Source: Haloarcula japonica DSM 6131
Lineage (GTDB): Archaea > Halobacteriota > Halobacteria > Halobacteriales > Haloarculaceae
NCBI RefSeq assembly: GCF_000336635.1
Contig: NZ_AOLY01000027.1
Coordinates: 1-64,000, forward strand
Direction of reading: 5' to 3'
DNA length: 64,000 nt
Position numbers and translations under genes: made by a program. The number at the start of each line of letters is the position of its first letter. Positions within the stretch are counted from its first letter, which is position 1. The notes beneath the pieces were generated by a model. That model was not told the DNA's origin. It was given only the letters and a program-made list of their open reading frames with translations, and did not search any database. This document shows positions 44,602 to 63,605 of the stretch, one piece after another.

Positions 44602-44628
44602 TTTTGTGTTCCTCTGTCGGGTGAGAGG
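44602..44628 (+). promoter_or_regulatory. Leader element before 44629 gene
   Basis: TTTTGTG (44602-44608), stem CCTCT/AGAGG (44611-44615, 44624-44628), loop GTCGGGTG. The ATG follows the stem directly. Confidence 0.8.
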
Positions 44629-45666
44629 ATGACTGACCTTTCACTCGGTACGTTCGAAGACGGAGACAGCGCCGACAACGACCTCGATCCCGATGCTGCA
44701 AGCATCGCCCGATGCGCGACGACGTGTCGCGCTCCTGACCGTGACGACAGCAGTTGGGCCTCCCCGGACGAGGACTGGGGGCTGACAACACAGCGGCCGG
44801 CGTCGTCGATCAACACGTCGGCTGGTCGAGCAACCAAACAGCAAACCCGGTGGGTCGTCGATGGGGACGTCGGAGACTACGTTGAGCAGTACGCAACTGG
44901 TGACCTCCTGCAAATCCCAAACACGTACGGCGACTTCAGTTCAGTCGACACTCGAGTCACATTCGTCGACGGGCTCGCTGACAGCTACGGGTACGGCATT
45001 GACACACAGGCTCTTGAAAAGGCATTCCGAGTCCTCACTGGCGGTGGCCGATACACTGCGTCGCAATATACTGCCATCCCGTGCGGGAAGCAGCCATGGA
45101 TTCTGACGGGTCCAGAAGGGACGCTCTTGTGCAGCTGTATGCCCGTCGAACGGCCGGAGAATCCATACACGAAGGACCTGCGGACGCCAGAGACAACCCT
45201 GCAGATCGAGGAACAGAACCAAACAGTCCGCACGGGAGCCGCTGAGTTTGCTCACTTGCTGTCCGACGCTCTCGGTGTCGATATCGAGGGTGTAGAGTAC
45301 GCAACAGTACGCGGGCAAACCCAGCACTCGTTCATCGGCGAGGAGGACAAGTTTTCGATCAAGGCTAGTGACTTAGCACAGTTGCACGGGTTAACATCCG
45401 ACCCATCCATCATCCAGGCGGGGATAGGCCATGGAGTCCAGCCCCCCAGCGGTGGCGACCCAATCTCGGTTGAGTGGGACGGGCCGGAGCATCCGGTTGG
45501 ATATCTCGACGAGGGAGACGTGATCGCCGGCTACGAGTTTACGTGGGAACAACCTGAAGAGTCGCTGGAAGACGTTGCAGTCGTTCGCGAGTACCGGATC
45601 ACACGGAACTACTCGCGATGGACGGTTGACTACTATACCCACCGCCTTGCGTCAGTCGTCCCCTGA
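44629..45666 (+). CDS. Haloarchaeal plasmid hypothetical protein (345 aa)
   Basis: A 345-residue acidic protein of unknown function. A segment around residues 125-185 (L-E-K-A-F-R-V-L-T-G-G-G-R-Y, then Y-T-A, then L-T-G-P-E-G-T) matches the C-terminal segment of the 226-aa protein at 55185, so both share an undescribed small domain. The remainder is strand-rich with no metal motif or membrane segment. ATG 44629 is fixed by the leader hairpin ending immediately before it. A second leader element and the PCNA gene follow 20 bp after the stop. Confidence 0.7.
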   Translation: MTDLSLGTFEDGDSADNDLDPDAASIARCATTCRAPDRDDSSWASPDEDWGLTTQRPASSINTSAGRATKQQTRWVVDGDVGDYVEQYATGDLLQIPNTYGDFSSVDTRVTFVDGLADSYGYGIDTQALEKAFRVLTGGGRYTASQYTAIPCGKQPWILTGPEGTLLCSCMPVERPENPYTKDLRTPETTLQIEEQNQTVRTGAAEFAHLLSDALGVDIEGVEYATVRGQTQHSFIGEEDKFSIKASDLAQLHGLTSDPSIIQAGIGHGVQPPSGGDPISVEWDGPEHPVGYLDEGDVIAGYEFTWEQPEESLEDVAVVREYRITRNYSRWTVDYYTHRLASVVP

Positions 45667-45686
45667 CCGACGCCGCCAACGGCATA

Positions 45687-45714
45687 TTTTGTGTGCCCTC
45701 CGGCAAGTGGAGGG
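45687..45714 (+). promoter_or_regulatory. Leader element before PCNA-like gene
   Basis: TTTTGTG (45687-45693), stem CCCTC/GAGGG (45696-45700, 45710-45714), variant loop CGGCAAGTG. The ATG is at 45723. Confidence 0.75.
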
Positions 45715-45722
45715 AAATCGAA

Positions 45723-46595
45723 ATGTCACAGTCTACAGCGGCCAGTAGCACCGAAGCAGCAACCACCGACGCCGAAACGAGCGTGCCAGAGACGCCGGCG
45801 GACGGTGACGCAGAACTCGACACTGCGGACCTCCTGTCGCTCAATGCCCCGCAGCATCTTCGGATCAGCGGCGAGGTCCAGTTGTTTGAGCGGATCTTCG
45901 CGGCGGCTGGCACGGTCACAGACAAGACGCGACTCGGGATTGCAGAGTCGGGAATCGCCATCCGGGCGGCCGACCAGCAGGGGCACGCGATGGTTGACCT
46001 GCGTGTCTCTGCAAGTTCGTTCAGCTCCTTCGATGCAGGGAGGGGGACACTGGGAGTGGATGTCGGACGAGTTCGCGATGCACTCTCGATCGGCGACGCA
46101 GGCGACCTTGCACAGTTCGCACTCGATGCAGCGAATAGCACACTAGAAATCAACATCGACGGGATAACGCGCACTATTTATCTTGAGGCGGTTGAATCGC
46201 TCCGCTACCCTGTCGAGATGCCAGAGATAGACATCCCGGCAACCGTCCATCTGAGTCCAAATGACATCTCGCTCGGTCTTGAGGCAGCGGATATGCTTGC
46301 CGACCGGTTTGACCTCTCTGTTGACTCCGATACCGGAGAAATGCAGTTCGCCGCAGACGGTGACACTGACAGCATGACCTACCGGTGGGACGACACGGAT
46401 CTCATCGCCTTCGAGCCTGCGGATGTCGAAGTGAAACTTGACTCGTCGCTGGTCAAATCGGCGAATGCTGGCCTGCCAGACGGCACTAATCGGGTTCTCC
46501 ATATCGGAGACTCAGTCCCGCTTGTGCTGAAATCGGAGTTCCCCGACGCCGATGGAGCGATGCAATTCGTGATCGCGCCGAAGCTCCCGAACTGA
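45723..46595 (+). CDS. Plasmid-borne PCNA-like sliding clamp
   Basis: A 290-residue protein. After an acidic ~40-residue N-terminal extension it matches haloarchaeal PCNA along its length: G-I-A-I-R-A-A-D with A-M-V-D-L, L-G-V-D-V-G-R-V-R-D-A-L, the D-G-I-T-R-T-I-Y interdomain region, and F-V-I-A-P-K at the end. PCNA encircles DNA and tethers polymerase and other enzymes. The N-terminal extension and divergent residues suggest a specialised clamp for the plasmid. The start is set at the ATG after the leader hairpin rather than at 45693, which lies inside the leader. Confidence 0.85.
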   Translation: MSQSTAASSTEAATTDAETSVPETPADGDAELDTADLLSLNAPQHLRISGEVQLFERIFAAAGTVTDKTRLGIAESGIAIRAADQQGHAMVDLRVSASSFSSFDAGRGTLGVDVGRVRDALSIGDAGDLAQFALDAANSTLEINIDGITRTIYLEAVESLRYPVEMPEIDIPATVHLSPNDISLGLEAADMLADRFDLSVDSDTGEMQFAADGDTDSMTYRWDDTDLIAFEPADVEVKLDSSLVKSANAGLPDGTNRVLHIGDSVPLVLKSEFPDADGAMQFVIAPKLPN

Positions 46596-46680
46596 CTCGG
46601 CTCCCCGTGGTTTTGCGGAAACGGTGGTGTGTCTTAACCAACAGCGACCGCCATACTTCTCGACTGTTGGTTAGCGCTAA

Positions 46681-46708
46681 TTTTGTGTCTCCCCGGTCGG
46701 GTGAGGGA
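46681..46708 (+). promoter_or_regulatory. Leader element before 46718 gene
   Basis: TTTTGTG (46681-46687), stem TCCC/GGGA (46690-46693, 46705-46708), loop CGGTCGGGTGA, ATG at 46718. Confidence 0.72.
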
Positions 46709-46717
46709 TTTTCCTCT

Positions 46718-46981
46718 ATGGACCCGACCGAAACAGTGCCAGACTACGAGCGCTTCGAGCGCGAACAGATCGCACAGGACCGTGACCGGCAGCGTCCCAA
46801 TACCGTCGAGATTGACGAGCCACGAGGCCGTGAGGTGGTCACCAGTCTGCTTGACGAGGGGCTGGTTGAACCGATTCCGGAACAAAACGTCTTGCAGCAC
46901 GTTCCGTCCGGGCAGTGCTTTGACTCCGACATGGCGCTGGTGTACTTCCACAAAGGCTGGGAGGCCAGAGGCGAGGAGTAG
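46718..46981 (+). CDS. Small acidic hypothetical protein (87 aa)
   Basis: Starts MDPTETVPDYERFEREQ. A charged helix-rich protein with a central V-V-T-S-L-L-D-E-G-L-V-E-P-I segment that looks like the third part of a winged helix, and a C-terminal F-H-K-G-W. No family is recognised. Earlier in-frame codons (from 46607) would translate the leader, so the ATG at 46718 is chosen. A short 150-bp gap without a gene follows. Confidence 0.65.
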   Translation: MDPTETVPDYERFEREQIAQDRDRQRPNTVEIDEPRGREVVTSLLDEGLVEPIPEQNVLQHVPSGQCFDSDMALVYFHKGWEARGEE

Positions 46982-47130
46982 CGGATTCGCGTTTGTTAGA
47001 CTCTTAAGCCAACAGAACGAGCTACAAGACTATCTATTTGCGTTAACTACTCTCGGAAAGAATCAATTGTCACAAACACACATATAGCACAGGTAAAGGA
47101 CTTGTCTGCAGAGATATATATCAGATAGCA

Positions 47131-47328
47131 ATGAGTGAAACCACTAGCAATCAATTCTTTCGGAGCCGATTCGGGCTAGGAGCTGAGTGCGTAGTTATTG
47201 GGATCCTAGAGTTTCTCTGCGTCACGGTCGTCCTCTTAGTAGACGAGAGCTCATTGCAGTTCAGCCTTCTTGCAGGTACTGCATTGGGAATATTCACTAC
47301 TGTTTTACGCTATTTAGTCCAGCGCTGA
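47131..47328 (+). CDS. Small two-helix membrane protein (65 aa)
   Basis: A 65-residue protein with two hydrophobic segments (about 18-36 and 42-60) joined by a short D-E-S-S loop and a basic C-terminal end (R-Y-L-V-Q-R). Plus-strand A/T-rich promoter-like sequence precedes it. It lies alone between two leader-controlled genes and lacks the leader element. Function unknown; small two-helix proteins on plasmids are sometimes toxins or immunity factors, but nothing specific supports that here. Confidence 0.5.
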   Translation: MSETTSNQFFRSRFGLGAECVVIGILEFLCVTVVLLVDESSLQFSLLAGTALGIFTTVLRYLVQR

Positions 47329-47460
47329 AGGAGTTAGCCACCCACTCACTCGGATTGGGGTGGTCTACTCAGCTGCTGTGAGCGCCACCTGAACTGAACA
47401 ACTCGAAGCATCGTAGACTGGGGAGACACGATATCAATGTGTCTTAAATTAAACAGCGAA

Positions 47461-47489
47461 TTTTCTGACCCCCAGTGGAGGTGCGGGGG
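47461..47489 (+). promoter_or_regulatory. Leader element before ArdC-like gene
   Basis: TTTTCTG (47461-47467), stem CCCCC/GGGGG (47469-47473, 47485-47489), loop AGTGGAGGTGC. An extended CGTGCCC...GCGTCCC tail precedes the ATG at 47522, as in the long-leader subtype at 60-63 kb. Confidence 0.7.
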
Positions 47490-47521
47490 CGTGCCCGAGA
47501 GCGCGTCCCAGAGACAGATTA

Positions 47522-48484
47522 ATGTCAACGATACAGTCAGAGACACCAGAGCAGTCGTCCAGCCAGCAGACCACTTGCACCTTCGACGATTCGGACTCCC
47601 GGGACGAGGAGATGCGCGACCAACTCGATGCGTGGGTCGAGGATCTTGCCGACCTCACCGACGAAGCGCAGGCCAGCGAGCAGTTCCAGCAGTGGCTCGA
47701 CGTCCAATCGAAGTTCCATGATTACTCGGCTCGGAACACGCTACTCATCAAGCTCCAGTGTCCCGAAGCAACCCGAGTTGCGGGGTACAATACGTGGCAA
47801 GACGAGTTCGACCGGTACGTCCAGCAAGGCGAGGACGCGATCTGGATCTGGGCTCCCATTATCACGAAGAAGTGCCCCGAATGCGGCAATTCGCCGTCGT
47901 ATCACGAGAACACGGACTGTGAGTACGACGAGACAGAGCCCGAACAATGGCGGCGGGGACTGGTCGGGTTCCGGCCAACGTCGGTGTTCGATATCTCTCA
48001 GACCGAGGGCGAACCGCTTCCCGAACTGGAGACAGAAGCACACGGCGACCCGGATGGACTTGTCGAGGACCTGTTGGACGCGACCGACGAGATCGGCGTC
48101 GACGCAAGAATCGTCACTCCGGAAGAGTGGGAGCATGGGTCTGCACGGGGCGTTTGCGAGCGTCGGAACGTCATGACCACGAATCCGATGGTCGAAGCGG
48201 TCGACCGAGACAATCGGGCCGCCCTCGCGAGTACACTCATCCACGAGTTCGCCCATGCAGAGCTTCACTTCGATGTCGAGGATGAGGCGGAGCGGTCGAA
48301 ACGCGAAGTCGAAGCCGAGGCAGTCGCCTACGTGGTCAGTCGTCACTTCGGGCTGGACCCCGACAACTCGGCGTTCTACTTGGCGGCGTGGGACGGCGAC
48401 GCACCAGAGACGCTTCGGGACCGGTTGGACCGTATCTCGTCGACTGCGGCGGATCTGATCGACGCCGTCGAAGGTGCCAGCTGA
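47522..48484 (+). CDS. ardC: ArdC-like antirestriction protein with zinc insertion
   Basis: A 320-residue protein. The N-terminal ArdC/DUF1738 ssDNA-binding region includes Y-S-A-R-N-T-L-L-I (68-76) and G-Y-N-T-W (88-92). The C-terminal zincin domain has H-E-F-A-H (241-245) with E-A-E-A-V-A-Y downstream. A C-P-E-C plus H/C cluster (118-133) forms an inserted zinc site not usual in bacterial ArdC. ArdC-type proteins protect incoming single-stranded plasmid DNA from host restriction during conjugation, which fits the transfer operon in this element. Confidence 0.85.
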   Translation: MSTIQSETPEQSSSQQTTCTFDDSDSRDEEMRDQLDAWVEDLADLTDEAQASEQFQQWLDVQSKFHDYSARNTLLIKLQCPEATRVAGYNTWQDEFDRYVQQGEDAIWIWAPIITKKCPECGNSPSYHENTDCEYDETEPEQWRRGLVGFRPTSVFDISQTEGEPLPELETEAHGDPDGLVEDLLDATDEIGVDARIVTPEEWEHGSARGVCERRNVMTTNPMVEAVDRDNRAALASTLIHEFAHAELHFDVEDEAERSKREVEAEAVAYVVSRHFGLDPDNSAFYLAAWDGDAPETLRDRLDRISSTAADLIDAVEGAS

Positions 48485-48523
48485 GAGGGAGCGGTATCTT
48501 TCCAGACGTGCTTGAGAGGAGTG

Positions 48524-48554
48524 TTTTGTGACTCCCCTGGTGGGCGAGGGAGTC
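48524..48554 (+). promoter_or_regulatory. Leader element before GIY-YIG-like gene
   Basis: TTTTGTG (48524-48530), a 7-bp stem GACTCCC/GGGAGTC (48530-48536, 48548-48554), loop CTGGTGGGCGA, ATG at 48559. The longest perfect stem in the family. Confidence 0.8.
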
Positions 48555-48558
48555 GAAT

Positions 48559-50172: not shown

Positions 50173-50206
50173 TTCTTCCCGTCTCCGTATTTAAGCCGCG
50201 GGGTCG

Positions 50207-50234
50207 TTTTGTGCCGCGCCTGCCAGCTGGGCGC
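50207..50234 (+). promoter_or_regulatory. Divergent leader-like element before 50261 gene
   Basis: TTTTGTG (50207-50213) then a stem GCGCC/GGCGC (50216-50220, 50230-50234) around TGCCAGCTG. It has the same layout as the others but lacks the GGGTGA loop, so membership is tentative. Confidence 0.5.
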
Positions 50235-50260
50235 GCCGGTCGGTGCGCTCGGTGTTGTTC

Positions 50261-51202
50261 ATGTCTTCTGAGGCTCGACACTCTTGGTCAGCGGCGGCTG
50301 TCGGCGATGCACAGCAGGCTGAGTACATCGGGTTCCTTCACCGGGAACCGTTCGTAATCGATGCTTACCGGCTTGGATTCGCCGTCGGCGTTCGCGAGGA
50401 CTACACCTACCAGTCCTCGCTGCGGAACGTCGACGTCCCGATTGAGATTCTAGACAACGACTTCCGGAATCCAGACTTGGACCGGTACATTGAGCGCTTC
50501 GAGCGATGCGAGCCGTCGGTCGGGATGCTCGGCGATGCATACGACCAGCAGGAAGCGCGACGGTACAACCAAGCCGCACGGGAGCTGAAACGAAAGTTTC
50601 CGGAGACAGAGGTCATTATCGTCCCGAAGTGCCGCGACGCAATCGACGTGATCGACGAGGACATTGTCTTGGGCTATCCGATGGGCTACTCCGACCAGAC
50701 CGCCGACGAGTACACGGATATTGTGGACTGGCGGGGACGGCGAGTGCATCTGTTGGGAGCAAGTCCCACGAAACAGTATCCGGTGATCGAGGAGCTAACA
50801 CAGCCGCGGGTGACTGGGCAGGAGCCAGCCGATATCGTTGGCGTCGACTGGAACGGGATTCATCTGGCGGCGCTTCACGGCGAGTATTTCTCACCACACG
50901 GCTACGGGAGTGCGGACCAGCTCTCGATACGGGAGACGGTTCAACAGAGCCTGCGACACATCCGGTCATACTGGAAATCGCGGGGTGTGTGGCCGACCGT
51001 GAAGAAAGACCGGACCCCGCTAACAGCGGAACCGATGGACCCTGTCTGGGCTGCTGACGGTTCAACAGCGACTGTGAGTGGCCTTGAGGATGCGATTGTC
51101 GTTGAGTATGAGAACGGACAGACGCTCGCGTACCGGAGCCAACACGAGCGAGACAGGGTGGAATACCGGGCAGGTCTCACTCCCAGTGAAGTTCACGGCT
51201 AG
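50261..51202 (+). CDS. DUF6610-like haloarchaeal protein, possible TGT-like TIM barrel
   Basis: A 313-residue protein. It contains S-V-G-M-L-G-D-A-Y-D (about 85-94), E-V-I-I-V-P-K, a G-Y-P-M-G-Y segment, R-V-H-L-L-G-A-S-P (about 165-173) and D-I-V-G-V-D-W-N. The repeated strand-Gly-Asp pattern with V-H-L-L-G resembles the TIM barrel of tRNA-guanine transglycosylase/DpdA-type enzymes, but the match is by eye only. If right, it could insert a modified base into DNA or RNA. The start is placed at the ATG after the leader-like element rather than at 50243. Confidence 0.55.
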   Translation: MSSEARHSWSAAAVGDAQQAEYIGFLHREPFVIDAYRLGFAVGVREDYTYQSSLRNVDVPIEILDNDFRNPDLDRYIERFERCEPSVGMLGDAYDQQEARRYNQAARELKRKFPETEVIIVPKCRDAIDVIDEDIVLGYPMGYSDQTADEYTDIVDWRGRRVHLLGASPTKQYPVIEELTQPRVTGQEPADIVGVDWNGIHLAALHGEYFSPHGYGSADQLSIRETVQQSLRHIRSYWKSRGVWPTVKKDRTPLTAEPMDPVWAADGSTATVSGLEDAIVVEYENGQTLAYRSQHERDRVEYRAGLTPSEVHG

Positions 51203-51313
51203 AACAGCTACTGCCACTGAGGCTCTTACCGAACTCAGTGAAACAGTATTGTCTGAGTTATGTCATAACCACTGATGATGAATACAGGGCGCGAATACAG
51301 CAGTGCAACGTCG

Positions 51314-51814: not shown

Positions 51815-51985
51815 ACGGCTCTCTAACAAAACAGAACTGTATAATTTTGCTCCCATGATCTCGAATACTGTATCCAGCCTCTATATCTTGCTGCCAATTC
51901 GCACCAATGTCAGTTCCTCTATGATTATTTCACCAGATTAGGCAAGAGTCACCACTGAACAGCCGTGTATCCCGTAGAGCCGCAA

Positions 51986-52011
51986 TTTTTTGTCTCCCCC
52001 ACGGGTGGGGA
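51986..52011 (+). promoter_or_regulatory. Leader element before 52022 gene
   Basis: A T-rich box (TTTTTTGTC), stem TCCCC/GGGGA (51995-51999, 52007-52011), loop CACGGGT, ATG at 52022. Confidence 0.7.
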
Positions 52012-52021
52012 AGTTCCAGAT

Positions 52022-52339
52022 ATGAGCGCGAAACTGTCTCAGGAGACTGCACCACAGTACAGTTGCCCGAATTGCGGTTGCACGAAGGCACGAGACTACG
52101 GAAACGACGGTACAAGAGAGTGTTCGGGATGCGGACGCGACGCGACACCAGACCGGAAGAACTACGGTGCAATTTTGGATCCAAGCAAAATCACACCTGA
52201 GTCAGTTGATGCACCTGCTAACCACCCAGAAGCACATCTGCCCGGAAGCGTTGCCAGACGGCCACAACTACTGATTCTAGCACCTGATTTTGTGACTCCC
52301 GGTGGGGCGAGGGAGACAGATGACCACCACACAGACTGA
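52022..52339 (+). CDS. Zinc-ribbon protein (105 aa)
   Basis: Starts MSAKLSQETAPQYSCPNCGC. A CxxC...CxxC zinc ribbon (C-P-N-C near 15-18, C-S-G-C near 34-37) occupies the first 40 residues, like TFB or transposase zinc ribbons. The rest is polar. The last 20 bp overlap the next gene, and the leader element of that gene (52288-52315) lies inside this coding region, so its final residues are constrained by the hairpin. Confidence 0.68.
   Translation: MSAKLSQETAPQYSCPNCGCTKARDYGNDGTRECSGCGRDATPDRKNYGAILDPSKITPESVDAPANHPEAHLPGSVARRPQLLILAPDFVTPGGARETDDHHTD
52288..52315 (+). promoter_or_regulatory. Leader element embedded in the upstream gene, before 52320
   Basis: TTTTGTG (52288-52294), stem CTCCC/GGGAG (52296-52300, 52311-52315), loop GGTGGGGCGA, ATG at 52320. 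The element is coding in another frame for the 52022 gene. Confidence 0.78.
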
Positions 52340-53165: not shown

Positions 53166-53201
53166 CGTGCAAACCCGCGATATTGAACGTACAGCGGATA
53201 T

Positions 53202-53745
53202 CCAAGTTTGGAGTCTAGACCTGGGAGGAAATCACGAGCAGACCCCTAATGGGGGATTTCACACACACACCAGATTTGGAGTCGAGATATCTTAATATGA
53301 GTGTGCTTGAGTCCCGCGCTTACGGAAGCTGTACTTACTGTGCTGTCTCATCTTTCTCTTCCTTTCACATTCTAGTTAGACTAGACTAGAAGGAGACACC
53401 AGATTTGGAGTCCAGACACATCCGTAAACATGCTTCGAGAGTTTGTCCCCAGCCTCTCGCGCTTCTGGACTCCAAATCCGGTGTGTGTGTTGACCGCTTC
53501 TTACCCAACTCCTAGAATAGATTTCAGATATAGACACCCAGTATCGACTCCTATCCAATCTTCCACAGAGATGTCTCATCAACAGCAGAATCTGAGGACC
53601 TTTTGACTGCGTTTTGATGGCATATGATACAACCACCCAGTACACTCCAAATCCAGTGTGTTCCGATAGATTTGGAGTCAATTGAATATCCAATAGAATT
53701 AGTGATGAGGAGCTAAAACTACTATCTTCACTCCAAACTAGGTCC
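53202..53745. other. Replication origin with repeated ORB-like boxes
   Basis: Seven copies of a box with consensus CAGATTTGGAGTC or its complement occur beside the Orc1/Cdc6 gene. Forward copies: near 53202-53221 (diverged), 53269-53292, 53397-53416, 53662-53684. Reverse copies: 53464-53490, 53643-53660, 53727-53745 (partial). The box pairs 53395/53464 and 53643/53662 are inverted, as in archaeal origins where Orc1/Cdc6 binds. A/T-rich stretches at 53285-53395 and 53685-53725 could be unwinding elements. Confidence 0.8.
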
Positions 53746-53771
53746 ATAGGTTTTTGTGCCATCAATAAGAT

Positions 53772-55001
53772 ATGCGAGATATGCCAGATGCAGGGGACCA
53801 AGGGGGCGACCCCCTTTTCGACGCTCCTGTCGTGGAGCATCGGAACGAGATTTTCAAGAACCGAGACCTCGTCGACACGGATCACGTCCCTGACGCCGAC
53901 CGCATTATAGGCCGTGACGAACAAATTGAACAGGTAGCTCACGAGATTGGGGCTCTTGTTGTTGGTGAACCGGCCAGCTCGGTGCTGATCTTCGGAAAAA
54001 CGGGAACAGGAAAGTCGCTTGTCGCTAAACATGTAATGGGCAGGGTCGAAGCAGAGGCTGACCGTCGTGGTGTCAGTGTTGGAACTGCCTATATAAACTG
54101 TTCACAAACTGACGGTCCTGCCCGAGTCCCGCGCAATATTGGCCGTCGCATCAACCCTCCTGAAAGCGGCGTCAAATTCCCGTCCCGCGGTATTTCGACT
54201 GATGAATACTATGAGCGGCTATGGTCGATCCTTAACCAGCACTACGATGGTGTTGCCATTACGCTCGATGAAGTCGACAGACTTCGCGATGATTCCCCAC
54301 TGATGATTCTTTCTCGGGCTCGAGAAAATGGTTCAATAGATATACCCATTAGTATCGTGGCAATCTCGAACAAGATCGACTACCGGAATCAGATGAACGA
54401 GCGGACAAAAAGTTCGTTCGGCCATCGAGAGTACGTGTTTGACCCATACGATGCCAACCAATTACGGGAGATTCTTAGGAACCGATCAGACGCCTTCCAC
54501 GAAGGGGTGATTGAGGAGGGAGTCATCCCCCGGGTGGCAGCTCTCGCTGCGAAAGAACATGGCGACGCCCGAAAGGGCATTGAACTGTTGTTTTCACTCG
54601 GCAAATACGCCATACGAAACGGTTATGATACTATCTCAGAAGAAGATGTTCCAAAAGTACGCGAGATGGCTGAAGCCGAACGGCTTCGCGACCTTATTAC
54701 GGGCTTGCCAGCCCATTCCCAGCATGTCATCGGAGCACTTGCAGCGCTTACAATTAGTAATTCTGATGAAGGGTGGTTCCGGACCTCGAAGGTATTAGAT
54801 GCATATAAAAAACTCTGCAATGAGCACGCTGTCGATCCAGTCACCCATGAGCGTGTGAGACAACTTTTGGAGGAACTGTCATTTCTTGAAATCACCGAGT
54901 CACGGAACCAACACCAAGGGAGCAAAGGACAATTTAACGAGCACACGCTCAATAAACCCCCAGAGATTATCAAGCAAATCTATAGAGAGACAGCACCGTG
55001 A
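53772..55001 (+). CDS. orc1/cdc6: Orc1/Cdc6 replication initiator
   Basis: A 409-residue AAA+ initiator. Walker A is G-K-T-G-T-G-K-S (about 73-80), Walker B I-T-L-D-E-V-D-R (about 161-168), sensor-1 I-S-N-K-I-D, and sensor-2-like G-D-A-R-K-G-I. The C-terminal ~90 residues form a winged helix (F-R-T-S-K-V-L, then V-R-Q-L-L-E-E-L-S-F-L-E). It binds the ORB-like boxes at 53202-53745 and loads the MCM helicase. Its location directly beside the boxes is the standard archaeal origin layout. TTTTGTG occurs 14-20 bp upstream but without a hairpin. Confidence 0.95.
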   Translation: MRDMPDAGDQGGDPLFDAPVVEHRNEIFKNRDLVDTDHVPDADRIIGRDEQIEQVAHEIGALVVGEPASSVLIFGKTGTGKSLVAKHVMGRVEAEADRRGVSVGTAYINCSQTDGPARVPRNIGRRINPPESGVKFPSRGISTDEYYERLWSILNQHYDGVAITLDEVDRLRDDSPLMILSRARENGSIDIPISIVAISNKIDYRNQMNERTKSSFGHREYVFDPYDANQLREILRNRSDAFHEGVIEEGVIPRVAALAAKEHGDARKGIELLFSLGKYAIRNGYDTISEEDVPKVREMAEAERLRDLITGLPAHSQHVIGALAALTISNSDEGWFRTSKVLDAYKKLCNEHAVDPVTHERVRQLLEELSFLEITESRNQHQGSKGQFNEHTLNKPPEIIKQIYRETAP

Positions 55002-55157
55002 GCGACTGTGGCTGAACCTCTTGGGTCTCCTCAATAAGCACGCTCACTGACCGGTTGTTTCAGCCAGCTGGATGAATAAAGAAGCCGTATTCACAACGCT
55101 TAATCAACACCCCCTTAGTATCATCGGGTCTGTTGCTTAAATCCTTGAGCTGAGTGA

Positions 55158-55184
55158 TTTTCTGTTCCTCTGGCGGGTGAGAGG
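55158..55184 (+). promoter_or_regulatory. Leader element before 55185 gene
   Basis: TTTTCTG (55158-55164), stem CCTCT/AGAGG (55167-55171, 55180-55184), loop GGCGGGTG, ATG directly after the stem. Confidence 0.82.
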
Positions 55185-55865
55185 ATGACGGAAACTGATC
55201 CGACTCAGACGCAGGACGGACAGCCAGACCAGCAAGCCGGCTTCGACTTCAGCAAGCCCAGTCAAGAGCACGAGATCGAAGTGTCGTATTCGTGGGGGTA
55301 TGTCGACACCATCTACATGGACGACGACGGTGAACTCGTCCGCGCACAGGATACTGACGGTTACTACCGCAACGACGAATCGTTCGAGTGCACCTGTGGA
55401 GAGACATTCGGTTGCGAGAGCAAAGCAAAATCTCACATCCGAAGCGAGGGCTTCCGAGGCCCACCAGTGCCGGTCGCCGGCCATCCAGAAGCATTGCGTT
55501 GGGACAACGAGACAATGACCGACTTCGGGGGGAATGTGGAATTCATTCCAGACGTAACGAACACCGCCGCGAAAGTTGTCGACGGGGCTGACTACCTGAT
55601 CGCAACGGCCCGGACAACACTGACGCCACCAGCGGACCACGAGTTCGACAGCTGGGAGCCACTGCAATCCGGCCGCCTGTCGAATCACAATGGCGACTCA
55701 TTGTTCTCGGCGCGGATCTTGTCGAAGGCTATCGCGACGCTTTCGACCGGACATCAGTACGTTCCAGACCGCTACACCATCTACTTTCGTGGGCACACAG
55801 CACTGTACTTGGAGGGGCCGAGGGGCGGCATCATCATCGCTGAACGACTCCCCGGCCTCGACTGA
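55185..55865 (+). CDS. Hypothetical protein sharing a C-terminal module with the 44629 protein (226 aa)
   Basis: A 226-residue acidic protein. A C-T-C-G-E-T-F-G-C...H finger-like segment lies near residues 67-85. The final ~50 residues (L-S-K-A-I-A-T-L-S-T-G-H-Q-Y, then Y-T-I-Y-F-R-G, then L-E-G-P-R-G-G) correspond to residues ~125-185 of the 345-aa protein at 44629. Both genes carry the same leader. Function unknown; a zinc-containing plasmid-specific protein is the most that can be said. Confidence 0.68.
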   Translation: MTETDPTQTQDGQPDQQAGFDFSKPSQEHEIEVSYSWGYVDTIYMDDDGELVRAQDTDGYYRNDESFECTCGETFGCESKAKSHIRSEGFRGPPVPVAGHPEALRWDNETMTDFGGNVEFIPDVTNTAAKVVDGADYLIATARTTLTPPADHEFDSWEPLQSGRLSNHNGDSLFSARILSKAIATLSTGHQYVPDRYTIYFRGHTALYLEGPRGGIIIAERLPGLD

Positions 55866-55873
55866 GACGGCGG

Positions 55874-55900
55874 TTTTCTGTTCCTCTGGCGGGTGCGAGG
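55874..55900 (+). promoter_or_regulatory. Leader element before 55901 gene
   Basis: TTTTCTG (55874-55880), stem CCTC/GAGG (55883-55886, 55897-55900), loop TGGCGGGTGC, ATG directly after the stem. Confidence 0.8.
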
Positions 55901-56668
55901 ATGTCCACACACTCAGCGTCGACGCGAGCACAGTCGTTTCAGCATCGCCCGCCAGCAGACACAGGGGAATGTTCCTGTCCGATTCACGCCAACGGCGACC
56001 CGTTTACCGCACCTCTCGGGATTCGATTTGCCGATCATGTCGCCGTGGAGCCAATCGACAGAGAGACCGCAGCCGCCGTGTACGAGGCGCATCACTCATA
56101 CATGGAGTCGCTGCCGTCGGTCAACCTCGCTCACCATGGGATGTACTTTCAGGACTCGCTAGTCGGGGCTATCACGTACCGCTACCCGCTCATCTCAAAG
56201 AAGCGAATCCGGTACGGCGTCGACGGCCAGCTCTGTCCCGAGCCCGTCGAGATCGACAGTCTTCCAGCAGAGATTCGAGCGACCGCCCGGCGGGTGCTTC
56301 CATCGACGAACACGGCAGTCGTTGACAGCGAAGTGGTATCCGGCGACTCACTCGTCGAGGCTGCGCGGATTTGCATGGGCGTTCGGATGCCAAACCTCGC
56401 GTCGGCAGCGCTAGCCCGCTCACAGGAGCGATTCTTGCAGGCTGACGACCGTGACACTCGCTTCTTGTTGACGTGGGTACGCTCGGACTATGATGGCGCG
56501 ATGGTTCGGGCGCTGCAAGACAAGGGCTGGACCTGTACGGGCTACCGTGAACCGGGACAGGCAAGCAACCGCGAGAACAAGCCGATTCGTGAGCGATACA
56601 AGTGGCGCTTTCTCTGTCCCGTGGACACTGCTCGCGAACAATCAACACTTGCACGGTGGTCTCAGTGA
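55901..56668 (+). CDS. Unrecognised protein (255 aa), perhaps acyltransferase-like
   Basis: A 255-residue protein. A cysteine/histidine-rich N-terminus (C-S-C-P-I-H near 24-29) precedes an alpha/beta domain. V-Y-E-A-H-H-S-Y, G-M-Y-F-Q-D-S-L-V-G-A-I-T-Y-R and A-A-R-I-C-M-G-V-R recall the core of GNAT-like DNA-modifying proteins of the Mom type, but this is a weak visual likeness. The last residues overlap the following GTG start by 4 bp (GTGA), so the two genes are coupled. Confidence 0.55.
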   Translation: MSTHSASTRAQSFQHRPPADTGECSCPIHANGDPFTAPLGIRFADHVAVEPIDRETAAAVYEAHHSYMESLPSVNLAHHGMYFQDSLVGAITYRYPLISKKRIRYGVDGQLCPEPVEIDSLPAEIRATARRVLPSTNTAVVDSEVVSGDSLVEAARICMGVRMPNLASAALARSQERFLQADDRDTRFLLTWVRSDYDGAMVRALQDKGWTCTGYREPGQASNRENKPIRERYKWRFLCPVDTAREQSTLARWSQ

Positions 56669-58147: not shown

Positions 58148-58266
58148 TAGAAATATACTTCTTCTGTTCGGTACGCACGCTTACTGAGGGGCGTATTCGC
58201 TCTATGACGACTGAAATGAATGTACGTCTGTAGTACCGACTTGTCCGATAAGTCGCGGTTTGGTCA

Positions 58267-58656: not shown

Positions 58657-58906
58657 ATTTAGCTATTTTATCACATTTGCAAAAACGACATGGGTGTGAT
58701 TATTATATTTGATAGCTGGGGCGGATTTTGCGCCGTGCGCGGCCCGCGGATGTCACTGCCAGTAAGGCGTCACAGAACAGTTCGCAAGGTAATTATTTTC
58801 AGAACTGTCAAAAAGAATCGCCTGTTCAGTACGTAGTTTTATTGAGCAGGTATTTCAGCCAACGCAGTAAGTAGAAAACTTCACCCACAGCAACAGCGAG
58901 CCCCAA

Positions 58907-58933
58907 TTTTGTGTTCCTCTGGCGGGTGAGAGG
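58907..58933 (+). promoter_or_regulatory. Leader element before the 58934 operon
   Basis: TTTTGTG (58907-58913), stem CCTCT/AGAGG (58916-58920, 58929-58933), loop GGCGGGTG, ATG directly after the stem. Confidence 0.82.
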
Positions 58934-59236
58934 ATGTCTCGAAATATGTCCTGCCGTCGTTCGGAAGACCTGTCACAGCCAACCACCTCGCAGTTCGTCG
59001 AGTCCATCACGGCGACTGTTCGAGGGCAGTCCGGCAGCGCCGATGTTCAAGCAGTTGTCCTCCGTGCGGTGGCCCGGCGCTCAGACAGTATCGACCTCCC
59101 GGATGTACTCGAACTTCGCTCGCTCCTGGACGTCGACGGCGAGCAGGTAGACACGCTGGAGGAACAGGTTACAACCATCATCAGCGCCATCGAAGCCGAA
59201 CTCGCCGGTTGGGACCGCCGGGAGGTCGCTGCATGA
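58934..59236 (+). CDS. Small helical protein, first gene of four-gene operon (100 aa)
   Basis: A 100-residue acidic protein starting MSRNMSCRRSEDL, the first of four small genes chained by ATGA overlaps (58934-59980). It is mostly helical (Q-F-V-E-S-I-T-A-T-V, then S-L-L-D-V-D-G-E-Q-V-D-T-L-E-E-Q-V). No motif is recognised. The leader hairpin sits directly upstream and probably controls the whole operon. Confidence 0.65.
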   Translation: MSRNMSCRRSEDLSQPTTSQFVESITATVRGQSGSADVQAVVLRAVARRSDSIDLPDVLELRSLLDVDGEQVDTLEEQVTTIISAIEAELAGWDRREVAA

Positions 59237-59547
59237 ACGCAGCAGACGTGGCCACGTTGGGCGATTTCGGTGCTGGTGGCCCATGCTCGGATGTGCTGAT
59301 TGACACACAGAGCGCGGCACAGGAGGCTGCCGTCGGTGAGTGGGAATTTCTCGCCGCTGGCAACGACACGATCGGCTGGCATATCCCCGACACCGGAGCG
59401 ACAGTCCTGCTTAAACACAGTGACGCTGGCTGGACGCTCGAACGGGCGACCAAACTGGTCGGGACACGAAGCACACTCGACGCCGGGCTGGAGCTTGCCA
59501 GCTCGTACATGGCGGATCGACCGGAGGGAGCGTCGGCATGGCGATGA
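59233..59547 (+). CDS. Small hypothetical protein, second operon gene (104 aa)
   Basis: Starts MNAADVATLGDFG; its ATG overlaps the preceding TGA (ATGA), so it is translationally coupled. The 104 residues are acidic with an alpha/beta appearance (E-W-E-F-L-A-A-G-N-D-T-I-G-W-H-I-P, then A-T-V-L-L-K-H-S-D-A-G-W). No family is recognised, and no metal or membrane motif is present. Confidence 0.62.
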   Translation: MNAADVATLGDFGAGGPCSDVLIDTQSAAQEAAVGEWEFLAAGNDTIGWHIPDTGATVLLKHSDAGWTLERATKLVGTRSTLDAGLELASSYMADRPEGASAWR

Positions 59548-59744
59548 TCGAGCGCGAGCAGTGGCGTCGTGAGGAACGCCATCGGGTTCCGGCCGCGCTG
59601 GCACGGGCCCGGTTCTGGCAGTCGGTTGCGCCGCACAAGGTCGGCTTCTGGGACGCCGTCGACGAGACGCTTCTGGCTCACTACCCGGGCTGTCGGTACA
59701 AACGCAGGACGACGCTCGACGACTTCCGAGAGGAGGATTCATGA
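59544..59744 (+). CDS. Small basic/aromatic protein, third operon gene (66 aa)
   Basis: The ATG at 59544 overlaps the preceding TGA (ATGA), a reason to prefer it over 59538. The 66-residue product is arginine- and tryptophan-rich (E-Q-W-R-R-E-E-R-H-R, then F-W-Q-S-V-A-P-H-K) with a C-terminal R-R-T-T-L-D-D-F-R-E-E-D. It could be nucleic-acid binding. Coupled to both neighbours. Confidence 0.6.
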   Translation: MIEREQWRREERHRVPAALARARFWQSVAPHKVGFWDAVDETLLAHYPGCRYKRRTTLDDFREEDS

Positions 59745-59980
59745 GCGACACTCCTGACTCAATTCTCGACAAACTCCCTCCAGAGCGGTTGCTGGACGCC
59801 GACCATCTCCAGCCAATCGTCGCCGGCATCAACTGCATGCACTCAATGGAGACGGTCAAGCGGTATCTCGCATACGAGAACAAGCACCAGAACCGGACGC
59901 CGATCCAGTCTCGCCTTCGAGAGCGGGCACGGGAAATCCGTCGCGATGAATTGGATGCCGAGGAGCAAGCCATCGTGTGA
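59741..59980 (+). CDS. Small helical protein, fourth operon gene (79 aa)
   Basis: Starts MSDTPDSILDKLPPERLL with a 4-bp overlap to the previous gene. The 79 residues are helical, with a charged C-terminus (R-L-R-E-R-A-R-E-I-R-R-D-E-L). The last ~40 bp of the gene are repeated 600 bp downstream at 60541 as the start of a direct duplication. The stop is directly followed by the next leader. Confidence 0.6.
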   Translation: MSDTPDSILDKLPPERLLDADHLQPIVAGINCMHSMETVKRYLAYENKHQNRTPIQSRLRERAREIRRDELDAEEQAIV

Positions 59981-60110
59981 TTTCTGTGCCCCAACGGAGT
60001 GAGGGGCGTCCCACAGAGGACGTGCCGCCAAACCGACTATGACCGAGAATAAGACAGATGAGACGGCTGTACAGCAGTGCGACGACCTCGATATCGACCC
60101 TGATGCCGTG
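59941..60110 (+). repeat. Direct duplication, copy 1 (partner 60541-60710)
   Basis: Copy 1 covers the end of the 59741 gene, the leader and the first ~24 codons of the 60039 gene. The equivalent bases occur exactly 600 bp downstream at 60541-60710, with differences throughout. Confidence 0.8.
59981..60007 (+). promoter_or_regulatory. Leader element before 60039 gene (long subtype)
   Basis: TTTCTG (59981-59986), stem GCCCC/GGGGC (59988-59992, 60003-60007), loop AACGGAGTGA. A further conserved stretch, GTCCCACAGAGG, precedes the ATG at 60039. Confidence 0.8.
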
Positions 60111-60404
60111 GATATCGGTGATGGACTGAAAACGACCGAGGGCACGTCTGCACTCGCCGTCGTCGGTGTTGACGCTGAAAAGGAGCGGGTGAAGGTGTAC
60201 TCCCCGTCCGGCGAGCTGACGGTCAATCGCTGGGTGAGCATGGACCTGTTCAGCGTCCACTCCCCGAACGAGGACATCCAGACCGACGCCGACCGCGAAG
60301 CGTGGCTGAACGAGACGCTGCCGAAGAAGGCTACGCATATCGACGGGAACGTGTACCCACTCAGGTATGCCATCGACGAGGACGGGAACGTGATCGCGGA
60401 ATAA
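60039..60404 (+). CDS. Acidic hypothetical protein (121 aa)
   Basis: Starts MTENKTDETAVQQ. A 121-residue acidic alpha/beta protein (A-L-A-V-V-G-V-D-A-E-K-E-R-V-K-V-Y, then H-I-D-G-N-V-Y-P-L-R-Y). Its first ~20 residues are paralogous to the N-terminus of the 60638 protein (MSENKTDKTAAQQ), a product of the local duplication, but the rest differs. No family is recognised. Confidence 0.65.
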   Translation: MTENKTDETAVQQCDDLDIDPDAVDIGDGLKTTEGTSALAVVGVDAEKERVKVYSPSGELTVNRWVSMDLFSVHSPNEDIQTDADREAWLNETLPKKATHIDGNVYPLRYAIDEDGNVIAE

Positions 60405-60453
60405 TCGAGGAGCCGTACCACTCTCTCTTTCGCTCACTCTCACGCTCACGGTT

Positions 60454-60473
60454 CCCGAGCGCAAGCGCTCGGG
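60454..60473. terminator. Strong GC hairpin after 60039 gene
   Basis: CCCGAGCGC/GCGCTCGGG form a 9-bp stem with a 2-base loop, 50 bp after the stop. Archaeal terminators are usually T-rich rather than hairpins, so the terminator role is tentative. Confidence 0.4.
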
Positions 60474-60540
60474 GGACACGCTCCACCTTGGACCGGCAGG
60501 CCGGTCCGGCGGTCCCGCTTCAGGAGGTAGGTGAGGCTCA

Positions 60541-60710
60541 TCGCGATGAATCGGATGGCAGGGAACGAGCCGCCGTGTATTTTCTGCGCCCCAACGGGCT
60601 GAGGGGCGTCCCACAGAGGGCGTGCCGCCGACCAATTATGAGTGAGAACAAGACAGACAAGACGGCTGCACAGCAGTACGACAACTACCCCGATCCCGAC
60701 GCCATCGTTC
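60541..60710 (+). repeat. Direct duplication, copy 2 (partner 59941-60110)
   Basis: Copy 2 includes the remnant 3' end of the 59741-type gene, the leader, and the N-terminal codons of the 60638 gene. Confidence 0.8.
60580..60607 (+). promoter_or_regulatory. Leader element before 60638 gene (long subtype)
   Basis: TTTTCTG (60580-60586), stem GCCCC/GGGGC (60588-60592, 60603-60607), loop AACGGGCTGA, then GTCCCACAGAGG and the ATG at 60638. Confidence 0.8.
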
Positions 60711-60841
60711 ACTTTGGCGATGTCTCGGAGGAACTGGTCGAGTTGGTCGAGGAAACGCTGGAAACCTCCGAGTTCCTGTCGACCTCTCGCGACGACCTGC
60801 CCGAAACGACGCTGCTCGTCGAGGCGGTCAACAATGAGTGA
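60638..60841 (+). CDS. Small acidic protein (67 aa), duplicated N-terminus
   Basis: Starts MSENKTDKTAAQQYDN. A 67-residue, strongly acidic helical protein (D-V-S-E-E-L-V-E-L-V-E-E-T-L-E). The N-terminal stretch is shared with the 60039 protein. The stop TGA lies inside the next gene: that gene begins at 60834, an 8-bp overlap. Upstream in-frame codons reach into the leader and are not used. Function unknown. Confidence 0.62.
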   Translation: MSENKTDKTAAQQYDNYPDPDAIVHFGDVSEELVELVEETLETSEFLSTSRDDLPETTLLVEAVNNE

Positions 60842-61049
60842 CGACCAGCTGTTCATCGTCGTTGAGGGCGTCGGGCCAGCAGATTTTCCTGAGAACGAGG
60901 TGAGTTCCAACACGCAAGACGAGGCCGTTGCTCTCGCGAACGACATACACGACTTGATCCGGGAGGAGTACGGCAAGGAGGAGGTCGAGGGCGTCATCCC
61001 GGTGGTCAATCCCGACGCCCACGAGCAGATGCAGGCAACGGAACTCTGA
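60834..61049 (+). CDS. Small alpha/beta protein (71 aa)
   Basis: Starts MSDDQLFIVVEGVGPAD and overlaps the previous gene by 8 bp. It alternates a strand (L-F-I-V-V-E-G-V), a helix (D-E-A-V-A-L-A-N-D-I-H-D-L-I) and a strand (G-V-I-P-V-V), a compact ferredoxin-like or similar small fold. No motif is recognised. It ends a two-gene operon controlled by the 60580 leader. Confidence 0.6.
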   Translation: MSDDQLFIVVEGVGPADFPENEVSSNTQDEAVALANDIHDLIREEYGKEEVEGVIPVVNPDAHEQMQATEL

Positions 61050-62509
61050 CAGGCGGCGAAAAGGCAGTTTCTTTAGCCATGGTGCTGGCTGCAACGCCTG
61101 CTCAGTATGTATGCGTATCTTGCACATTATATATAACCCTCAGCGACAAAGTACAGGTGGAAACCTTGGCCGATGTGTGGTTCACAAAGCGATGGGGGCT
61201 CGAATCCGGAACTCCATCAAAGAATTGTTGAGCAGTCTACGGATGTTGCTACTATCTTTGCTGCCGACGGGACAATCACGTATGTGAGTCCGTCGGTTCG
61301 TCGTATCCTTGGCTACGACCCTGCTGACTTAATTGGTAATCAGGGGTATGAGTACGTCCACCCGGATGACCGGGAGGCCAATGCGAATGCGGTCGAACGA
61401 GCGCTGGACGGGGATGGATCGGCCGTTGCTGAAGTTCGGTTCAAGCGGGCTGACGGGACGTGGTGCTGGATCGAGTCGACACTTCGTGACCACCGTGACG
61501 ACCCGGTAATCGACGGGATCCTCGGGATGAGTCGTGATATTTCTGACCGGAAAGCCAAAGAGCAGGAATATCGCCAACTCGCAACGGAGTACGAAACGTT
61601 CCTCGAAAACGTTGCAGACGCAATATTTTTGCTCAGCGTGCGCCCAACCGAAACAGGGTATTCATTCGAGTTCGAGCGTCTGAGCCCATCATACGAGGAA
61701 CAAACCGGCCTTCGTACGGAACAGGTCAAGGGGAAAACCCCTGAAGAGGTATTTGACGACGAGCGTGGGGCTGAACTCGCAGCGAACTACCATCGATGTG
61801 TTCGAGTGGGTGAGCCGATCTCATATCAGGAAGAACTCCCTGTGAGTGAAGACGCACGGTTTTGGGATACGGTTCTAGCGCCAGTTTTCACCGATGGAAC
61901 AGTAACCCGAGTGATCGGTATTACGCGAAATGTGACAGAGCGTGTTCGGCGGGAACGGCAACTCAAAAGTCAGAACGAGCAGTTGGACGAGTTTGCAAGT
62001 ATTATCTCTCACGACCTGCGGAACCCGCTTACTGTCGCCATGGGACGTATAGAACACCTATCTGAGGAACACGACAACAAGCACATCGATGCAACTGCGC
62101 GGGCACTTGAGCGTATGCATGAAATCACCCAAGATACGCTCACGCTTGCTAGACAAGGGAAGGTTGTCTCAGAGATGGACGAAATTGACTTTAGCGGGCT
62201 GATTGGTCGATGCTGGCAAACAGTCCCGACGGATGAAGCTACGCTTGATGTCGCAGATGGGTTGCGGATTCGAGGTGATCAGAGCCGCTTGCAACACCTC
62301 TTTGAGAACCTCTTCCGTAATGCCATTGAACACGGTGGGGCGGATGTGACCGTCCGTGTCGGCGAATGTGATTCACACGGCATCTACGTTGAAGATACTG
62401 GACAGGGCATTCCCGAAGAACAACGGGACAGAGTGCTTGAACCGGGGCACTCATCAGCGAGTGACGGGACAGGATTTGGTCTCACTATCGTCAAACGGAT
62501 TGCAGAAGC

Positions 62510-62517
62510 ACATGGAT
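62510..62517 (+). other. IS6 target-site duplication, left copy
   Basis: ACATGGAT, repeated exactly at 63263-63270 on the other side of the element. Confidence 0.95.
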
Positions 62518-63262
62518 GGCACTGTCTAGTTCTGGATTACCTCAGCTGGCGTTCGTCCGTCGAGTGCTTGGTTCGGTCGTTCGTGGTTGTAGTGGTGTCT
62601 GAAGCGTCGTAACCACTGTTTCGCGCTGGATTGACTGCCCCTCCAGAAAGAATGGAAGCGGTCGATTCGCATGGTGACAGTCTGGAACCACTTTTCGAGG
62701 TGGTTCCGGATTCGATAGTCGAGCCGACCGCTCAAGTCGTGACGTGAGAGGGCAGTCAAATAGCCGCCAGCATCAACGAGAAACACTGTCTCGGCAACAT
62801 CGTGTTTCTGAGTGAGCCGGTGCAGGAACGCCGCCGCGGGGTCAGTCCCGCGGCGGCTGAACACGTCAACTTCGAGAAGCAGCTTTGATTCGGTATCGAC
62901 AGCGGCGTACAACCACTTCTTTTCGCCGTCAATCTCGATTTGTTTCTCATCGACCGCGACCCGCGACGGCTCCGCCGTCGGCGGGTCACTCTGTGCTTCA
63001 GACAGTGTATGCACCCAATTCCAGACAGCACCGTGAGAGCGATCGACACCCAGCAGGTCTAAGACAGCAACCGTCTCCCTAATCGACAGCCCCGCAGTAT
63101 GGAGACGCACCCCAAACCGCCGGACGGGTGTCGGTGTGCGTTCATTCTCCCAAACGTCTTGGCTGTCCTCATCCAACGTTTCTCTGAGGAGGTCTGCGAG
63201 TTGCATAGGCACTTCTCGCTTCGACCTCCTCGCTTCTCAAACCCGCTCAACTAGACAGTGCC
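62518..63262 (-). mobile_element. IS6-family insertion sequence (745 bp)
   Basis: Perfect 14-bp terminal inverted repeats, GGCACTGTCTAGTT (62518-62531) and AACTAGACAGTGCC (63249-63262). The flanking 8-bp duplication ACATGGAT is intact, so the insertion is recent. It is of the ISH14/15-like haloarchaeal kind by transposase similarity. Confidence 0.93.
62526..63212 (-). CDS. IS6-family transposase
   Basis: A 228-residue transposase with an N-terminal HTH-like region (about 28-70, including R-R-F-G-V-R-L-H-T-A-G-L-S-I-R-E-T) and a DDE domain: V-D-E-K-Q-I-E (Asp88), F-L-V-D-A-G-G-Y (Asp147), and a C-terminal H-Y-N-H-E-R-P-N-Q-A-L segment. The start is the ATG at 63212, 37 bp inside the right inverted repeat. 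Intact, so the element is probably still mobile. Confidence 0.92.
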   Translation of the reverse strand: MPMQLADLLRETLDEDSQDVWENERTPTPVRRFGVRLHTAGLSIRETVAVLDLLGVDRSHGAVWNWVHTLSEAQSDPPTAEPSRVAVDEKQIEIDGEKKWLYAAVDTESKLLLEVDVFSRRGTDPAAAFLHRLTQKHDVAETVFLVDAGGYLTALSRHDLSGRLDYRIRNHLEKWFQTVTMRIDRFHSFWRGSQSSAKQWLRRFRHHYNHERPNQALDGRTPAEVIQN

Positions 63263-63270
63263 ACATGGAT
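63263..63270 (+). other. IS6 target-site duplication, right copy
   Basis: ACATGGAT, identical to 62510-62517. Confidence 0.95.
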
Positions 63271-63547
63271 GGAGGCTTCAAATTCAGGAGAGTTCTGAGG
63301 GAGGAGCCCGGTTTGAATTCCGAGATGTGGATATAATCCATGCGTGATGAGACACAGTAATTGCTGAAAGGTGCTAAAGGCTGTTAGTTAGCACTCGCGC
63401 TAACCGGACTGTACCGAACCTCAGTATCTTGCACGGGTTGACTGACAAAATCTCAATAGCTCCGATTTCCCGCCCATAGGTGAGTCTCCTGCGCTGACCG
63501 CTTCTATCTGAAATAGAGTTGCGCCTTCACGAACTCTAGTCACCGAA

Positions 63548-63575
63548 TTTTCTGTGCCCCAGCGGGGTGAGGGGC
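63548..63575 (+). promoter_or_regulatory. Leader element before SWIM-domain gene (long subtype)
   Basis: TTTTCTG (63548-63554), stem GCCCC/GGGGC (63556-63560, 63571-63575), loop AGCGGGGTGA, then the GTCCCAGAGAGG extension and the ATG at 63606. Confidence 0.8.
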
Positions 63576-63605
63576 GTCCCAGAGAGGGCGTGCCGCCTGT
63601 TACAC

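Follow-up and report, generated by a model that had tools for sequence, protein, structure and literature searches.

A hairpin element repeated before genes on one strand of Haloarcula plasmids, a probable core promoter for a plasmid-borne TFB

In haloarchaea, alternative TFB paralogues choose promoter sets, and in phage N4 promoters carrying a short hairpin are read by the phage's own virion RNA polymerase. Here, an element of about 32 nucleotides (nt), composed of a T-rich box and a hairpin with varying but complementary arms, is described at 17 sites before genes in a window of 64,000 nt (the whole stretch analysed; Haloarcula japonica DSM 6131, contig NZ_AOLY01000027.1, positions 1 to 64,000). 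Compared with the TFB-paralogue promoter sets, the factor is plasmid-borne and a conserved hairpin lies between the presumed TATA box and the predicted start; as in N4, the stem-loop would be part of the promoter, whereas host-type factors are expected to read it.

Hairpin promoters repeated on one strand before establishment and anti-defence genes have been described as Frpo/ssi on enterobacterial conjugative plasmids (in the account consulted, PMC11541004), and the arrangement found here may be alike. Folding makes the -35 and -10 boxes of Frpo double-stranded; the present box lies outside the hairpin and its Ts stay mostly unpaired in the predicted fold, and the element is archaeal, short and tied to a plasmid TFB. 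In plasmids of the pLS20 family, the portion of PMC8708921 concerned describes EGeRS1 and EGeRS2, in which, similarly, one regulatory sequence serves scattered establishment operons including ardC, and EGeRS1 likewise contains inverted repeats; EGeRS1 is 400-600 bp long and EGeRS2 is paired there with a ribbon-helix-helix repressor, unlike the compact element with covarying arms. Among the open PMC papers listed, none, judged by title, describes this element or single-strand promoters in archaea.

The element is probably a hairpin core promoter that is read by a dedicated plasmid TFB and drives establishment and anti-defence genes as a regulon confined to one strand, rather than an RNA leader. 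Such an element would serve as a sequence tag for what appears to be the establishment regulon of conjugative plasmids in archaea; many of the genes so tagged lack a name and may be anti-defence genes. It would also link a general transcription factor carried by the plasmid with a promoter class of its own. It also raises the questions of what role a hairpin between TATA box and start site has for archaeal RNA polymerase, and whether that hairpin allows transcription to begin on single-stranded DNA.

Element architecture and stem covariation

At the 17 sites, all on the + strand, a box (TTTTGTG, TTTTCTG or a near form) is followed after 0-3 nt by a hairpin whose first arm is C-rich, whose loop of about 7-11 nt is built around GGCGGGTGA and whose second arm is complementary to the first. 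A first-pass annotation made from the letters of the window had listed these sites as sharing a box and an inverted repeat, and had suggested a covariance model, a search of haloarchaeal plasmids and a statistical test of covariation. All 17 are present, the copy before 50261 being weak and those before 9609 and 52022 having an imperfect stem or box, and the repeated gene-linked hairpin element is confirmed as real. A covariance model (R1, with rough E-values) built from 8 of the 17 copies recovered 16 of them; the copy before 50261 was missed by R1 and detected by a box-plus-stem description alone. On the - strand of the window R1 gave nothing better than E 0.86. The + strand of the window has 12 sites that combine TTTT[CG]TG with a stem of 5 bp or more, and the - strand has none; over 200 dinucleotide shuffles the mean was 0.08 and the maximum 1. 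An Rfam search of the window returned two matches, both under the gathering score and neither at the element.

The eight seed copies of R1 are located at 44599-44630, abutting the ATG at 44629 (E 4.3e-9; CCTCT/AGAGG), at 55155-55186, 55871-55902 and 58904-58935, abutting the ATG at 55185, a Mom-like gene at 55901 and the ATG at 58934, at 52285-52316 before a DUF6884 gene at 52320 (E 1.5e-7), and at 59977-60008, 60577-60608 and 63545-63576 before the genes at 60039, 60638 and 63606 (E 1.4e-9 for the last), each of these three with a possible second hairpin downstream. The non-seed copies recovered are those at 47458-47490 before an ArdC gene at 47522 (E 2.3e-5; CCCCC/GGGGG), 10766-10796 before the ATG at 10805 (E 4.3e-5; box TTTTGTT, CCCCC/GGGGG), 46678-46710 before 46718 (E 6e-5), 48521-48553 before 48559 (E 1.2e-4; GACTCCC/GGGAGTC), 16617-16648 before 16679 (E 0.011; TGGCCGC/GCGGCCA), 51983-52014 before 52022 (E 0.013), 9568-9600 before the ATG at 9609 (E 0.024; box TTTTGTG at 9571) and 45687-45714 before a PCNA-like gene at 45723 (E 0.24, also fitting the box-plus-stem description; CCCTCC/GGAGGG). 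The weak copy (CGCGCC/GGCGCG) occupies 50207-50235 before a DUF6610 gene at 50261. Four further copies lie on the same contig past the window, at 64307 (E 0.08), 66158, 66909 and 67769.

That the stems differ and yet stay complementary, as the first-pass annotation had observed, was borne out on a larger alignment (A3), which has 99 distinct rows from the top 150 of 253 matches and was selected and fitted by R1. In A3, 99.6% of stem cells are standard pairs, and relative to the commonest pair both sides are changed in 100 of 495 cells and one side only in 1, the double changes sitting in three of the five pairs. The covariation score was 0.463 against 0.175 in shuffled alignments (0 of 500 shuffles reached the real score), and sliding the partners lowered it from 0.46 to 0.02-0.15. 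Because A3 was chosen and fitted by the model itself, a swap test was added on ungapped copies picked by box and loop. Each of 42 gene families contributed a single copy to this test. Own arms were 90.5% Watson-Crick paired, a level reached by none of 2000 swaps, and swapped arms 61.4%; the covariation exceeds what base composition would give.

Strand bias, distribution and the plasmid TFB

Of 898 first-look candidates in the 4.28-Mb host genome, 150 were scored with R1, and the matches with E < 0.01 are confined to the window contig (C27, 83.7 kb) and to C46 (74.6 kb), all on the + strand. In the family, 51 of 146 genomes have a match at E <= 0.01; in the genus Haloarcula the figure is 22 of 32, and 20 of these hold from 7 to at least 49 copies (up to 49 candidates were scored per genome, and repeated contig ends, G030:C5 and C9, count some copies twice). 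In the order, 52 of 293 sampled genomes match at E <= 0.003, with up to 24 candidates scored per genome. Relatives that carry a name are plasmids of Haloarcula, for example pHH126 from H. hispanica N601 (NC_023011.1). For the matching records PLSDB predicts non-mobilizable plasmids, pHH126 and the plasmid of Haloarcula sp. CBA1115 (NZ_CP010533.1) being also typed MPF_T. Viral contigs gave no match in two exact-pattern scans, no looser or model-based virus scan having been made.

Inspected by eye, 283 R1 matches in 42 stretches (L040, which repeats L042, omitted; L034 and L039, partly mutual repeats, both kept) lie on one strand per contig, except on G013:C1, which has a + block and a - block. 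Among the matches listed, a close VirB4 (bits > 940; 29 contigs, of which six without a listed element were not counted) is on the strand opposite to the element in all 23 contigs having both, and a close plasmid TFB (at least 290 bits; 29 contigs or blocks, with G009:C3, lacking a listed element, and the mixed G007:C12 not counted) is on the element strand in 27 of 27. The count does not include distant VirB4-like matches (25-33% identity), of which one, on G035:C5, shares the element strand. On pHH126 the element stands at 15 of 21 co-oriented operon-heading genes examined and at none of 5 opposite ones, and on the CBA1115 plasmid at 9 of 14 and 0 of 4, respectively (pooled Fisher p 2.4e-4, uncorrected for shared ancestry; features tested, 33 of 40 in the pHH126 stretch, seven cas genes being omitted, and 23 of 49 in the CBA1115 stretch). 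When the description was loosened to an exact box with a stem of 5 or more, L040 again being omitted, 8 matches fell on the other strand, which look like chance.

A full-length TFB of 303 amino acids is encoded just past the window at 64338-65249 of the same contig, itself behind an element. Among solved structures, the TFBs 1d3u and 1ais match it best, and in a homologue (L047:5526-6425) TFIIB repeats and a zinc ribbon were recognized by Pfam. A TFB of at least 290 bits, a cut-off placed post hoc at the table gap between 293 and 268 bits, is present in 18 of the 20 genus genomes with at least 7 copies and in none of the other 12. The last helix of a canonical TFB reads the B recognition element (BRE). 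In this helix, two TFBs on other contigs of the host carry ISEVTIRNRYHEL and a third carries VTPVTLRGTYTEL, six plasmid TFBs carry TxRxWxQ(R/Q), and two TFBs of a sister plasmid family have neither the host nor the plasmid form.

Outside the genus, products at the 22 loci retained were named by motif reading, those at L031 and L033 via another frame by eye. The element precedes a TFB gene at 10 of them (L027, L028, L030-L033, L100, L101, L103 and L104), and a further check confirmed the TFB genes behind L031 and L032. At the remaining loci it precedes a small RAQYE-motif protein (six; L095-L099 and L106), a SWIM-family-like protein (two; L018 and L022), a MGHRALVAYER protein (two; L024 and L107) and an ArdC-like gene (L102), and at L105 no open frame was found behind it. 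In one genome of another family (G352), each of the contigs C3, C4 and C5 has elements and a TFB gene on one strand, and C4 has a second TFB on the other.

Evidence for promoter DNA and alternative readings

In 329 homologous pairs (13 families), identity is about 0.3 upstream of the element, 0.6 in the last four bases and about 1 at the box, and the arms, which were not used to pick copies, are 0.88-1.0 identical between homologues. As low upstream identity was a criterion in picking the pairs, and an exact box with a loop match in picking the copies, only the sharp edge and the conserved arms are informative. Among 83 distinct upstreams, AT-rich 7-mers are no more frequent at -36 to -18 of the box (19%) than at greater distance from it (19%), so that no TATA enrichment was found there, and no sequence other than the box itself is both TATA-like and fixed in position. 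A TATA box is usually centred near -26, and in copies abutting an ATG the box lies at -27 to -21 from it. In the sister plasmid family and at some loci of other genera the box before a like hairpin reads TTTATTG, TTTATCG, TTTATG or TTTTATC, and other such loci keep TTTTGTG or TTTTTTG. The DNA directly 5' of the box is G+C-rich (AT 0.21-0.28 at -6 to -3), unlike the CGAAA-type BRE named in the part of PMC4983044 consulted, where the haloarchaeal TATA is given as TTWT and 72% of Haloferax transcripts as leaderless. In stem 1, 680 cells contain 10 G·U, 15 A·C and 25 other mismatches, and G·U is not preferred. Because the upstream is unconserved, no TATA is enriched in it, the box is TATA-like and G·U is not in excess, the hairpin is most likely part of promoter DNA.

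On this reading, the box TTTT[G/C]TG (TTTATT, TTTATG or TTTTATC in some relatives) would act as the TATA box, and transcription would start at or directly past the second arm. The plasmid TFB with its altered last helix, itself behind the element, would most likely select these promoters and turn on the genes for ArdC, Mom-like, N6-methylase, PCNA-like, SWIM-like and other proteins. The loop, at about -14 to -5 from the predicted start, would fall in the zone to be melted, and the hairpin may ease promoter opening, either by extruding under negative supercoiling or by forming in single-stranded DNA.

Several observations weigh against a hairpin promoter read by a plasmid TFB. The start site is one that we infer from sequence. 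The TTTT core is well placed relative to -26, but the whole box is about 2 nt too close, and upstream of the box, at -24 to -29, AT content and identity show a weak, unexplained rise. Of the five covariation measures taken on A3, two are no higher than in shuffles, namely pairs with both-side change (3 versus 2.1; 123 of 500 shuffles) and further pair types (6 versus 7.0; 490 of 500). Between homologous genes both sides differ in 21 cases and one side in 210 (9%, versus 2-6% in three slides); these stems are mostly unchanged, and compensatory change is only moderately enriched. Among the matches listed, G007:C12 is mixed, with two + matches and one - match. Two genomes rich in copies, G017 (19) and G037 (16), have no close TFB in their contigs; in G065 an element lies on one strand and its nearest listed TFB on the other, and no TFB is listed on the G273 contigs with the best matches. 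Part of the TFB linkage and of the strand rules is also due to shared ancestry.

A tentative and distinctly less probable account is that the element fires on incoming single-stranded DNA, as Frpo of plasmid F does, so that anti-defence and establishment genes are switched on before the second strand is made. The conjugation genes with a relaxase, the presence of ArdC, Mom-like and N6-methylase genes behind the element, the restriction of each contig or block, bar one known exception, to a single strand, and stem pairing without G·U preference are all consistent with it, as is the slightly better folding of the stem in the template strand (0.52 versus 0.40). In bacteria, the common anti-defence families of the leading region are on the transferred strand, and some of them have Frpo promoters (described in the part of PMC11541004 concerned). 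For pLS20 the corresponding part of PMC8708921 reports that the transferred strand is the non-template strand, the opposite of what this account would require. Against the account, the box Ts are mostly unpaired in the single-strand fold (0.2-0.4 paired; the rest of the box 0.4-0.6), unlike in Frpo, and folding of single strands gave no larger fold pairing the box, so that an exact Frpo-type mechanism is not supported by these predicted structures. TFB and VirB4 also share a strand in the sister plasmid family (by eye), some copies precede TFB genes on chromosome-sized contigs, possibly in integrated elements, and the PLSDB prediction of non-mobilizable relatives points the same way, despite the MPF_T label of two of them. 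If true, firing on single strands would make the element an archaeal counterpart of single-strand hairpin promoters, with a dedicated TFB and tens of promoters per plasmid.

An RNA leader, in which a hairpin at the 5' end of the mRNA governs translation or stability, had been proposed in the first-pass annotation on the grounds of compensatory change, and is improbable. The strong covariation and the position before an ATG fit it, and the part of the argument that holds is that the arms are kept complementary; the step from there to RNA does not follow from stems with 10 G·U and 15 A·C, a near-random upstream lacking a conserved block or enriched promoter, and a box that is TATA-like in some relatives. 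The distance to the ATG is also variable. An ATG with 25 open codons follows within about 60 nt in 158 of 161 copies (35% of random positions), three being without one, and it abuts the second arm in 49 copies; it lies 0-12 nt past that arm in 92 of the 158 and 29-32 nt past it in 62. (These 161 were taken from 172 distinct canonical copies after exclusion of 11 that were in the strand minority or tied in their stretch, two of which, from the + block of L054, are probably real.) For the same reason the loop was rejected as a Shine-Dalgarno sequence; the pairing of the loop with 16S rRNA suggested earlier does not fit, in that GGGTGA in the canonical copies keeps a fixed distance to the box (these copies having been chosen so) and the ATG lies anywhere from 0 to 32 nt past the arm.

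A second hairpin, which begins at the predicted start in the 29-32 nt class, may well be RNA and speaks for a leader; an example of such a probable 5' leader is 63575-63605 on the + strand (CGTCC..GGGCG type, G·U tolerant). RNAalifold gave no consensus structure on the leaders with this hairpin, and it was therefore scored by a fixed pattern with three pairs fixed and two free, which is present in 50 of 57 leaders and 8.4% of shuffled ones. Of the 100 cells of the free pairs, 37 are G·U and 1 is A·C; 36 of the 37 are at one position, where T·G (36 of 50) may be a single inherited state. At 16616-16679, two overlapping possible hairpins (GGCCGC/GCGGCC and GGCGGCC/GGCCGCC) are followed by GGAGGTGAT and the ATG, and this double hairpin might act as an RNA switch in addition to the promoter.

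An operator for a dimeric repressor on double-stranded DNA is very improbable, since an inverted repeat of usual operator size near the predicted start would fit, but arms that vary (TCCTC, GCCCC, CTCTC, TTCTC, CTCCC, ACCCC and others) and yet stay complementary are not explained by a single recognition sequence.

Genes behind the element and neighbouring features

Ten window proteins were compared with Pfam. ArdC (gene 47522; ArdcN, 24.7 bits, cut-off 22.6), DUF6610 and DUF6884 exceeded the cut-off, the PCNA-like protein (gene 45723; PCNA_N, E 5e-4, 20.1 bits against 20.3), the Mom-like protein (gene 55901; Mom, E 1.8e-4) and a zinc ribbon stayed below it, and four had no match. At related loci, an N6-methylase and TFB are over the cut-off. 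In the family of gene 63606, SWIM was just under the cut-off on a member from another genome (L034:10470-11156), and the SWIM-like protein was also found named as a SWIM zinc finger. Taken by their domains, the element-headed genes would fit an establishment and anti-defence regulon such as those known on bacterial plasmids (described in the parts of PMC11541004 and PMC8708921 consulted).

The transfer module lies on the strand opposite to the elements (- strand) and comprises a type IV coupling protein of TrwB/TraD type (18325-20550; PF10412, E 7e-30), a MobA/VirD2-like relaxase (20538-21293; PF03432, 27.9 bits, cut-off 24.6) and a VirB4-like ATPase (22143-25397; PF03135, E 4e-4, 20.8 bits against a cut-off of 21). 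Also on the - strand, a SNF2-type helicase stands beside an Eco57I/MmeI-type methylase at 36124-43821, and the pair may constitute a defence system located next to those for transfer. An IS6-type transposase is located within the element-rich region at 62518-63263. At 53200-53770, repeats like ACACCAGATTTGGAGTC in both orientations directly precede an Orc1/Cdc6 gene at 53772 and are probably origin iterons.

In five stretches of the sister plasmid family (L077, L078, L079, L082 and L084), the strand opposite to TFB carries an inverted repeat (GCCCG/CGGGC) that is conserved and has an AT-rich box; its flank is conserved too, and it is probably something other than the element. Two adjoining membrane proteins at L001:5541-8037 resemble cytochrome bd oxidase subunits, which we take to be metabolic plasmid cargo.

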